Source: a virus
Length of the DNA stretch: 64,000 nucleotides
Virus record (IMG/VR): IMGVR_UViG_3300050138_000176
Location: 1-64,000 of that record
Direction: 5' to 3' (one strand)
In this document: piece by piece, positions 40,465 through 43,903 of the stretch
How positions within the stretch are numbered: position 1 is the stretch's first letter
Layout of the letters: each line of letters opens with the position of its first letter
Notes under the pieces: generated by a model
What the model saw: only the letters and a program-made list of their open reading frames with translations
The model's database searches: none
What the model was told of the DNA's origin: nothing
Translations under genes and position numbers: made by a program

Positions 40465-41097
40465 GTGAACCACGACCTCTACTCAATCCTCGGCCTGCCA
40501 CGCGACGCCACAGATGCCGACATCAAGAAGCAGTATCGGCGGCTTGCTGTCCTATACCACCCGGACGCCGTTCCTCACGCCACAGATTATGAGAAGGAGG
40601 AATCCGCCGCCAAGTTCCGGGAGGTGCAGGAATCCTACGACACGCTCGGCGACCCGGAAGCCAGGGCGCGCTATGACAAGGACGGCACGACCGGCGACGG
40701 CAGCCGGCTCCAGAAGGAAGCCTTGTCGAACGTGTGCGGCCTGGTGCTGGCGGTCGCGGAGACCGGCGGCGAGGGCTGCGACATCGTGGCGGCGGTCCGG
40801 CAGCAGGTCGCCAACGCGAAGACCATGGCGTTGAACGCGGCGGACACCGCAAGGAAAAAGGCCGCGCTGTTCCGGCGGCAGGCGGCCAGGATCACGCGCA
40901 AGGCTGGCGGCGAGAACGTGCTGTCCACGGCCATTGAAAATCAGGCGGACAAGATGGACGCGGCGGCCAGGGACTTCGAGGCCAGCGTGGCGATGCAGGA
41001 CGCCATGATGGGGCTGCTGGCGGACTACGAGTGCGCGGCTTCAACGCAAAATAAATATGTTGCGATTGGCGGACTCACTTACACATGGACGCGATGA
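40465..41097 (+). CDS. DnaJ-like J-domain protein
   Basis: A 210-residue protein with an N-terminal J domain: YSILGLPRDATDADIKKQYR, the His-Pro-Asp motif at residues 32-34, and ESYDTLGDPEARARYD. The rest is helical without the zinc or C-terminal DnaJ domains. J domains stimulate Hsp70 ATPase; a phage J protein may direct host DnaK to viral proteins, as in lambda replication. The start is GTG 40465. Confidence 0.85.
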   Translation: MNHDLYSILGLPRDATDADIKKQYRRLAVLYHPDAVPHATDYEKEESAAKFREVQESYDTLGDPEARARYDKDGTTGDGSRLQKEALSNVCGLVLAVAETGGEGCDIVAAVRQQVANAKTMALNAADTARKKAALFRRQAARITRKAGGENVLSTAIENQADKMDAAARDFEASVAMQDAMMGLLADYECAASTQNKYVAIGGLTYTWTR

Positions 41098-41299: not shown

Positions 41300-41881
41300 A
41301 TGAAAATCCAAATTACATTCAGCGAAGAAGTGTTAGGGACGGCGTCTCAGAACCCGGAAATACACAGGGAGTTTATCGCAAGCAAATCTCCAGACGCAGC
41401 AACGGTGGAAGATGAAGTGGCGGCAATTGGAGCGGATGCTGTCGCCGATAAAATGATGACCGTATTCCCGCGTGACGGTGGAAAGCCGTTTGTTTACGAC
41501 TACCAAATCAAAGGCTTCTTCAAGGATGCCTGCGCATCTCTGGCGCGGGTACCCGGCACTCAAAGCAATAAACTAAAAGCGTATAAAAAGGTGATCGATG
41601 GAACCATCTTTATCTTTCCACGAAAAATCCATTTCGGCGGTGAGGTTAAGCTTGGAAATTGCCAAAGACCTCTGCGGGCCGAAACAGCTCAGGGGCCGCG
41701 TGTCGCGCTGGCAAACAGCGAGACATTGCCATCTGGTGCGACATTGGAATGCGAGATACGGTGCCTAGATGAAGGCATGGAGAAAGTGGTTAAGGAATGG
41801 TTGAACTACGGAGCGTTGCGAGGTCTGGGACAGTGGCGGAATTCAGGCAAAGGCAGGTTCTCATGGAAGTTAATGGAATAA
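41300..41881 (+). CDS. Widespread phage early protein (unknown function)
   Basis: A 193-residue protein matching a family common in phages and prophages: ITFSEEVLGTASQNPEIHRE, DYQIKGFFKDAC, KLKAYKKVIDGTIFIFPRK, and ALRGLGQWRNSGKGRFSW. The function has not been settled to my knowledge. It is the last coding sequence before the 41882-42172 repeat tract. Confidence 0.7.
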   Translation: MKIQITFSEEVLGTASQNPEIHREFIASKSPDAATVEDEVAAIGADAVADKMMTVFPRDGGKPFVYDYQIKGFFKDACASLARVPGTQSNKLKAYKKVIDGTIFIFPRKIHFGGEVKLGNCQRPLRAETAQGPRVALANSETLPSGATLECEIRCLDEGMEKVVKEWLNYGALRGLGQWRNSGKGRFSWKLME

Positions 41882-42172
41882 GCAACGGCGTGGCAACACC
41901 GAGCACAGCAATGATTAGTACAGCAAAGGCTACGCAAGGCCGCTCACCGTATAGCAATGGCACTGCACGGCGGATCAAGGCGCAGTAAAGCATAGGCATG
42001 GCAACGCCGGGAACAGCGACGGCAGGGCAGGGTGTTGCAGAGCGCGGCCACGGCAAGGCGAGGCAAGGTGCAATAACGCATAGCAAAGGCATTGCGAGGC
42101 GCTGCCGCGAGTAGCAAAGGCTTGGCTCAGTGAGTCAACGCCAAGCATAGCAAAGGCAAAGCATAATAAGAT
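41882..42172. repeat. Degenerate pentamer-like repeat tract, no evident gene
   Basis: About 290 bases packed with short variants of AGCAAAGGC, GCATAGGCATGGC and GGCAAGGCGAGGC, giving GC steps roughly every five bases. No long coding frame with a start signal fits it, and the array lacks CRISPR spacing. Similar GCAAGGC-rich tracts occur in other phages near recombination genes. It may be an origin, a packaging or recombination site, or a structured RNA. Confidence 0.7.
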
Positions 42173-43903
42173 ATGACATCCGAAACCAAACTCGATCAGT
42201 GGCAGGAAGCAGCGGCGGCCAGCACCAGCGACATAATCTACGTGTGCGCCTGTCCTGGAAGTGGGAAAACTGCAACCACCGTAGAGCGTGTGCGAAGGAT
42301 GCTGGCGCGTGGTGTCGCACCGGAAACCATCTGCTGCGTTACGTTCACTTGTGCGGGTGCTCTCGAAATGCAGAAGCGGCTCGGTGTCCGGCTCGGTCAC
42401 TGCGGCACGCTTCACTCCCTCGCGCTCAAAATGCTGACCAAGCACCACAAACTTGCCGGGCTGCCGGCCCGCGTCACCGTTACCGACGAGCAGGAGGCGG
42501 CGGCGTCGCTGGCCGAGATCGTGACCATGCTGCGCTTTGATGGAAAGATTAGCGACAAGAAGCTGGCTGAGGCGGTCAAGTCGCAGCGGCACGCGATGGC
42601 GTTCGCCGGTGCCATCGAATCCTCGTCGCTGACCAAGGAAGGCGTGGTCGCCAAGGAATTCTTCCGACGGCAGCAGGAGGCTGGAGAATTGGACTACGAC
42701 TCGGTGCTGGTCTATTTCCTGCGGCTGCTCAAGACTGGAGTGGAGCCGTGGCCGTTCAAGCACCTGCTCGTGGATGAGGCTCAGGACAACGCGGCGATTG
42801 ACTGGGATATCTATGACCTGATGCCGGTCAAGACACGGTGGGCGGTGGGTGACATCGACCAATCCATCTATTCCTTCCGTGGAGCCAAGCCAGTAAGATT
42901 CCTGTCAAGAATAGGCGAGGCACAAAACAGCATCGCGTTCGGTCAAGCATTCCAACTGCCTACAAACTACAGATCGGGACGCGCCATCGTGACCGCCTCG
43001 CAACGCCTCATTGCGCACAACACGGCCCGCGTTGCAATGACCGCGCAGCCGCGACCGGACGCCGGTGACGGCATGGTGCAGAGCAAGGAGTTCAATGCGC
43101 CGGTCGATGAACTATCGTGGGTCGCCAACGAGTTGTCCAAGCTGGCACCCGGCGACACGGCGGCGGTTCTGTGGCGCACGAATCGTCTCGCTGACCAGTG
43201 CCGACAGCACTTCCAGAGCCTCGGCGTCAAGCTGGCGCAGCCGCTGGCGAGGGAGCCGAAGGAGGCCAGGGCGGCGCGGGCCGTTCTTAATTTCCTAGCC
43301 TCGCCTTGGAGTGATACGGCGGCGTTGCGGGCCGCGAAGGCGGTCGGACTGGACGCTTCAACGGTGCATTCGCAGTGCGACTTCCAAGGCCAGTCACCGT
43401 GCGTTCTGCTCAACGGCGGCATGGGTGCTTTTGACCGTGACGACGGAAACCCGGTCGCGTTTACAGTGGACGAATTCAAGGAGGCGCTCCGTGCCGTCCA
43501 AGTCCTGTCTGCTACCGGCACCGACGGCATCCGCGACGCGCTGCACAAGCTCGCGGCCTCGCTGCCGGAGCCGTTCACGCTCACCGACCTGATCTCGGCA
43601 GCGAACAGCCGCGACGAGCCGGTCGCGGAGCAGGAAGGGATAATAATTTCTACCGCGCATTCTGCAAAAGGACGGGAATGGGATATTGTGATAATTTGTG
43701 GCATGGAACAGGAAACATGGCCTGGCCGCAACGCCGCAGAAGATTTGGAAAGCGAACGGCGCTTGGCGTACGTGGCCACGACAAGGGCACGGAGCAGATT
43801 GGTTGTTACATGGTGCAAGCAGCGTCCCGCACCTGGACGCGCTTGGTTGATGCAGGATATGACACCGTCGCAATTTATTTCAGAACTTGGCTTGACCAAG
43901 TAA
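42173..43903 (+). CDS. UvrD/Rep-like superfamily 1 DNA helicase
   Basis: A 576-residue helicase with its motif set: Walker A CPGSGKTATT (residues 27-36), motif II LLVDEAQDN, motif III AVGDIDQSIYSFRGA, motif V IISTAHSAKGREWDIVII and motif VI LAYVATTRARSRLVV. Such enzymes unwind DNA in a 3'-5' direction in repair and replication. It begins right after the repeat tract. Confidence 0.9.
   Translation: MTSETKLDQWQEAAAASTSDIIYVCACPGSGKTATTVERVRRMLARGVAPETICCVTFTCAGALEMQKRLGVRLGHCGTLHSLALKMLTKHHKLAGLPARVTVTDEQEAAASLAEIVTMLRFDGKISDKKLAEAVKSQRHAMAFAGAIESSSLTKEGVVAKEFFRRQQEAGELDYDSVLVYFLRLLKTGVEPWPFKHLLVDEAQDNAAIDWDIYDLMPVKTRWAVGDIDQSIYSFRGAKPVRFLSRIGEAQNSIAFGQAFQLPTNYRSGRAIVTASQRLIAHNTARVAMTAQPRPDAGDGMVQSKEFNAPVDELSWVANELSKLAPGDTAAVLWRTNRLADQCRQHFQSLGVKLAQPLAREPKEARAARAVLNFLASPWSDTAALRAAKAVGLDASTVHSQCDFQGQSPCVLLNGGMGAFDRDDGNPVAFTVDEFKEALRAVQVLSATGTDGIRDALHKLAASLPEPFTLTDLISAANSRDEPVAEQEGIIISTAHSAKGREWDIVIICGMEQETWPGRNAAEDLESERRLAYVATTRARSRLVVTWCKQRPAPGRAWLMQDMTPSQFISELGLTK

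Follow-up and report, generated by a model that had tools for sequence, protein, structure and literature searches.

The window that we analyzed is a 64-kb stretch of phage DNA (IMG/VR record IMGVR_UViG_3300050138_000176, positions 1 to 64,000). Within it, a small gene, a degenerate repeat tract, and a helicase gene follow one another on the same strand. Their coordinates, together with those of the nine 6-nt units that phase the tract, are as follows (all nine units are taken from a Viterbi parse).

41300..41881, + strand: vipr-like gene for a 193-aa protein, a predicted Cas7-family RAMP with the C-terminal glycine-rich loop GLGQWRNSGKGRF (AlphaFold2, Foldseek, homologues)
41882..42165, + strand: repeat tract, or vrRNA-like array, of about 52 degenerate units (autocorrelation, Viterbi parse, same-strand adjacency to the gene in 115/118 sequences)
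41882..41887, + strand: phasing unit 1, GCAACG, directly 3' of the vipr stop codon
41923..41928, + strand: phasing unit 2, GCAAAG
41954..41959, + strand: phasing unit 3, GCAATG
41990..41995, + strand: phasing unit 4, GCATAG
42016..42021, + strand: phasing unit 5, GCGACG
42047..42052, + strand: phasing unit 6, GCCACG
42083..42088, + strand: phasing unit 7, GCAAAG
42114..42119, + strand: phasing unit 8, GCAAAG
42150..42155, + strand: phasing unit 9, GCAAAG
42173..43903, + strand: UvrD-like helicase (Pfam UvrD), a neighbor that starts right 3' of the array

The tract follows the first gene without a gap, its first base (41882) being the one after the TAA stop of the open reading frame at 41300-41881. 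The last clear unit ends near 42165, and the ATG of the uvrD-like gene follows at 42173; a preliminary description of this DNA had placed a repeat tract between these two genes, and it lies there. The 5/10-base repeats which that description reported do stand out when the tract is compared with itself against 1,000 dinucleotide-preserving shuffles (lag 5, z = 5.9; lag 10, z = 4.9), but it overlooked the stronger peaks, which fall at lags 31 (z = 7.0) and 36 (z = 7.3) against the same shuffles. The rhythm is one of 5 bases with one 6-base unit per ~31 to 36 bases, not a plain 5/10 repeat. By the Viterbi parse, the array is made up of about 52 degenerate 5-base units (consensus G-C/Y-N-N-N), with nine 6-base units of the GCAAAG type setting their phase, and the steps between successive 6-nt units are 41, 31, 36, 26, 31, 36, 31, and 36 nt (range 26 to 41).

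Tandem Repeats Finder did not report the tract because the copies are too degenerate, and no second site in the whole 64-kb window approached its sliding period score. T makes up 11.7% of the tract versus 17.7% of the window. The run AA-CG-AC at variable positions is common to three blocks within window positions 41882-42020 (from 41893, 41934, and 42001), and these blocks are probably old duplicates inside the array.

The tract was also said to hold no gene, and indeed we found no support for a reading frame. All six frames contain stops, any frame is open over >90% of its length in only 36 of 120 tracts, and none is consistently open among the relatives, in which tract length ranges from 225 to 1975 nt. 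We therefore rejected a coding repeat based on a period that is not a multiple of 3, phase steps of 1 base, the lack of a consistently open frame, and the variable length. Dinucleotide usage at array positions 2-3 is somewhat closer to that at codon positions 1-2 than is usage at array positions 3-4, and general genome bias accounts for most of this likeness.

A predicted RAMP precedes the tract

The 193-aa protein had no Pfam or PHROG family match. Its AlphaFold2 model, built with 51 homologues, had a pLDDT of 84.6 and a pTM of 0.79, with low confidence at residues 21-50, where we checked for the thumb domain expected of a VIPR protein. Foldseek against the PDB returned, among the best 50 matches, only chains containing CRISPR RAMPs (Csm3, type VII Cas7, Cmr, Cas7-11, and complexes with them), the best being Csm3 (6xn3_F, E = 6.8e-7, probability 1.00). 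A viral relative in BFVD, 61% identical to the protein, is annotated as a RAMP superfamily protein. The C-terminal GLGQWRNSGKGRF fits the RAMP glycine-rich loop pattern; across the 51 homologues, the motif GxGxxxxxGxG is nearly invariant, and G175, Q178, N181, and G185 are invariant. Based on the Foldseek matches, the annotated relative, and this loop, what had been called a recombination-locus protein is by its predicted fold a Cas7-family RAMP, not a recombination protein.

The other window neighbors of the locus are the UvrD-like helicase, a DnaJ-domain protein, and proteins with no family match. The helicase adjoins the array in the window phage only (1/76 downstream neighbors), and a search with a helicase pattern yielded no relatives; we rejected a link between helicase and array on these grounds, and the helicase is probably not part of the system. 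The DnaJ domain is N-terminal in a phage protein encoded directly upstream of the vipr-like gene (window 40465-41097), and among the loci compared this neighbor occurs in the window phage only.

Linkage, register, and turnover across relatives

We pooled 53 IMG/VR loci, 37 bacterial contig loci, and loci from a tract-pattern scan into a set of 118 sequences, in which a few phages appear twice. A tract lies within 300 nt of the gene homologue in 115 of the 118. Two of the three sequences with no scored tract have the gene at a contig end, and the third (L029) has a weak tract that is visible by eye. Every one of the 125 tracts within 300 nt is on the strand of the gene (0 opposite); 92 are downstream and 33 upstream, with both arrangements at some loci. 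In the reverse test, which started from the tract pattern alone, the gene adjoined the tract in 27 of 33 contigs, while three contigs had no tract and three were cut at the tract. The median distance from the end of the gene match to a downstream array is 9 nt, arrays on the upstream side end ~43 nt ahead of the gene, and in the 3' flanks of the arrays only ribosome-binding sites and the following gene are present. We searched these flanks for an invariable structured 3' tail and found none, nor was a vap accessory gene, which VIPR loci usually but not always have, found beside the array in the compared loci. No accessory neighbor is common to the loci; the neighbors are mixed, and the most frequent, an HTH protein, is near 13 of them.

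Comparable tracts do occur in unrelated phages, as the preliminary description had held. The carriers of gene and tract are IMG/VR records and prophage-like bacterial contigs, in keeping with the VIPR systems discussed below, most of which reside in phages, archaeal viruses, and prophages. Homologues with tracts were also seen in MAG contigs assigned to Saccharibacteria (L087), Sedimentisphaerales (L089), and Verrucomicrobiota (L084), phyla distant from the common Clostridia hosts, and these may reflect binning errors. In some phages, further tracts lie several kb away from the main array (L075:11301-12100, L116:7701-8050, and L004:551-1025).

The tracts share one register. When 51 tracts (30 kb) are pooled, their autocorrelation has maxima at lags 5, 10, 15/16, 21, 26, 31, and 36, and on through 62 and 93, with register coherence reaching ~120 nt, the longest lag tested. 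The log-likelihood gain of a periodic model is 5030 at 31 nt versus 765 at 30 nt and 823 at 32 nt, and the 31-nt model yields the consensus GCAANG[GC][AC]A[AT]GGCANNGCNNNGCNNNGCNNN. The same register appears in 44 bacterial-contig tracts outside the model set (0.121 at lag 31, -0.007 at lag 30). Within the 5-nt units, base retention is 0.83 for G, 0.60 for C, and 0.73 for C/T (Y), with the other three positions near background. The first G of the VIPR motif GGY is not conserved in the present clade (0.27), and the resulting consensus, NGYNN, is related to the GGYNN of VIPR.

Pairs of close relatives point to how the arrays change. In one pair (L024 and L054), the genes are 96.4% identical, and the arrays differ by whole in-register blocks that have been inserted, lost, or replaced, with the other blocks identical. 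In another (L078 and L083), the genes are ~96% identical and only 27% of the array is in common. Tandem block duplications occur in some arrays; at L067:5540-6060, for instance, two near-identical blocks are adjacent, GGATTG GCTCG GCCAC GAAAT GTGAT and then GGATTG GCTCG GACAC GAAAT. These copies suggest, at the level of sequence, that the array grows by block duplication. From the few pairs available, array change seems to resemble spacer turnover more than the drift of a fixed element.

Such duplicated blocks, and the degenerate, low-T sequence, are what one would expect if the tracts were decaying coding repeats or neutral products of slippage. We regard this explanation as already contradicted and its probability as close to nil, given a register that is coherent over >120 nt in 51 tracts, a G that is kept at 0.83 while neighboring positions are free, and the strict linkage of tracts to a single gene across contigs that were assigned to several phyla.

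The linkage also bears on whether the tract works as DNA, as a filament or binding site for a protein at an origin, packaging site, or recombination site. The region is one of early replication and recombination, with SSB, RecT, Sak, DnaB, and YqaJ as neighbors in some phages, and the average period of 5.17 is close to half a turn of DNA. Yet the tracts share the coding strand of the gene in 125/125 cases, which a double-stranded DNA site would not require, and nothing but a ribosome-binding site separates the end of an array from the next gene, an operon-like arrangement. The non-integer average stems from discrete 6-nt units and not from smooth drift, and the predicted fold is that of RAMPs that bind RNA. 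We consider a DNA site very improbable; in particular, a helical-phase DNA element was rejected based on the discrete 6-nt step and the total strand bias. The origin or recombination hot spot that had been suggested for the tract finds no support, because the tract follows a single gene family, which is not one of replication or recombination genes, and is always on its strand.

The third role that had been put forward, a structured RNA, was right in kind as to RNA and wrong as to structure: the tract folds no better than shuffled sequence (z = -0.59), and an Rfam search of it returned no family. No intrinsic promoter or terminator was found at the tract above chance.

A probable guide-RNA array

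Tracts of this sort had been taken to lack an explained role, but one has been proposed. In VIPR (PMC13142463; bioRxiv 2026.04.26.720920), the phage RAMP protein Vipr binds vrRNAs of 9 to 16 YNNGG repeats. The NN bases of the vrRNA pair with dsDNA, one target base is skipped between pairs, and competing phages are repressed (PMC13142463). According to the same preprint, the consensus of other VIPR types is a related one, and in some of them the arrays are staggered and the vrRNAs overlap (PMC13142463). We propose, with a probability of roughly 0.87, that the present tract and the preceding gene make up a VIPR-type system, the tract being its guide-RNA (vrRNA) array and the gene encoding its Vipr protein.

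In this proposal, the operon transcript would carry the array. Vipr protomers would coat the array RNA, presumably one per 5-nt unit through the conserved G-C/Y, much as Cas7 subunits hold crRNA. The variable bases between the grips would pair noncontiguously with the dsDNA of rival mobile elements and block them, most likely by repression, given the absence of an attached nuclease. The 6-nt GCAAAG-type unit, which recurs every 26 to 41 nt, would reset the register and probably mark the end of one guide and the start of the next, with guides perhaps overlapping, such that the stretches delimited by these units act as guides. The array anatomy, the strict same-strand linkage, the RAMP fold, and the block-wise turnover come from the present analysis. 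RNA binding, gapped DNA recognition, and repression are carried over by analogy from the VIPR preprint (PMC13142463), and we infer from it that the present clade would read DNA in the same way; our assignment of a single protomer to each unit, and of a role to the 6-nt unit, is likewise extrapolation.

A more specific version of this model, which we advance tentatively and at somewhat less than even odds, is that the array is one continuous, phase-locked code. The 6-nt unit at about every 31 nt would then be a register mark for cutting or reading overlapping guides, each transcript would give a staggered ladder of guides, and new specificities would arise by gain and loss of 26-41-nt blocks.

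The same components could instead form a ribonucleoprotein in which the tract is a decoy or scaffold RNA, such as an RNA anti-CRISPR that sequesters type III or type I complexes of the host, with variable bases that carry no target information. The protein is Cas7-like, phages are known to carry RNA anti-CRISPRs that mimic repeats, and the searches that we ran found no targets. A decoy would need a constant sequence, however, and here only G and C/Y are constant, with blocks gained, lost, and replaced between near-identical genes; the published homologous system, moreover, reads its variable bases as guides (PMC13142463). We judge a decoy to be unlikely.

For the target searches, guides were decoded by taking positions 2-3 as NN and allowing skips of 0 to 3, and they were compared with both strands of 2.5 Mb of locus DNA in which the tracts had been masked. 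In this small DNA sample, no match at any of the four skip lengths was clearly above those of shuffled guides; an excess at skip 1 stemmed from low-complexity matches and was gone with in-block shuffles. Scans of IMG/VR with three decoded guides as exact patterns, which are unforgiving, gave nothing convincing. A guide from the window matched one phage sequence (two contigs) at 20/20 positions, in a tail-region gene but out of codon phase and at near-chance frequency; the other two guides had no match. One guide searched against 308 genomes gave a single match with two mismatches, which is chance level. As the locus DNA was small and the patterns exact, these searches neither support nor refute a code with a 1-nt skip.

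Two separate vipr-like genes, with one tract apiece, occur in a single Clostridia genome (G002:C1:197324-197935, L085; G002:C21:48551-49123, L132), which is a natural case for conflict between prophages. The decoded guides from the arrays of these two VIPR-like prophages had no mutual matches.

If our reading is correct, a class of degenerate phage repeat tracts, tied to a single RAMP family in >100 sequences from phages and prophages, would be explained as guide arrays. Nature would thereby offer a large set of arrays in which to test the reading of the VIPR code, the delimitation of guides, and the ways in which arrays change, matters relevant to where Class 1 CRISPR came from. For guide processing, a direct prediction follows from the 31-nt register and the 6-nt unit.

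Comparison with known systems

The predicted protein resembles Csm3 and the Cas7 backbone subunits of CRISPR types III and VII in its fold, its G-loop, and a putative periodic grip on a guide RNA. Unlike them, it has 193 aa with no extra domains, and its guide period would be 5 nt versus 6. The locus also differs in having no CRISPR repeats and no cas operon: we looked at the tract for near-identical repeats with unique spacers and found none, and a cas operon is absent among the window neighbors. In type III toxin-antitoxin systems (ToxIN), too, a protein gene is accompanied by tandem RNA repeats (~36 nt). Unlike the units here, the repeats of ToxI are structured and nearly identical to one another, and ToxN is no RAMP. 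Like the present locus as we read it, TIGR-Tas (PMC12045711) is borne by phages and combines a tandem array of guide RNAs with a single small protein, but Tas carries a Nop-type domain where the present protein has a RAMP fold, and the anatomy of the arrays differs.

The closest parallels are with VIPR type II of Escherichia phage SUSP1 (KT454805), in which a small phage RAMP gene likewise lies beside noncoding degenerate 5-nt repeats on the same strand. Both have a conserved G/Y with free bases, both occur mostly in phages and prophages, and their C-terminal G-loops align. In hhalign, the profile of the 193-aa family matched SUSP1 Vipr with the G-loops in register, though this is a weak match (E = 3e-4, probability only 39%). 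In SUSP1, four separate arrays consist of plain GGYNN units with a strict 5-nt period and no extra base, whereas here one continuous NGYNN array is interrupted by a 6-nt phasing unit at about every 31 nt. SUSP1 also has structured 3' tails and a vap1 gene, in contrast to the present clade, which has no tail and no common accessory gene. A staggered-array VIPR type (fig. S18 in PMC13142463) is described in terms that fit a continuous array with periodic markers, and the present clade may be that type. Given the two core VIPR parts, the differences from type II, and the weak profile match to SUSP1, we file the present locus as a putative VIPR-type variant whose reading code is taken by analogy from the known system.
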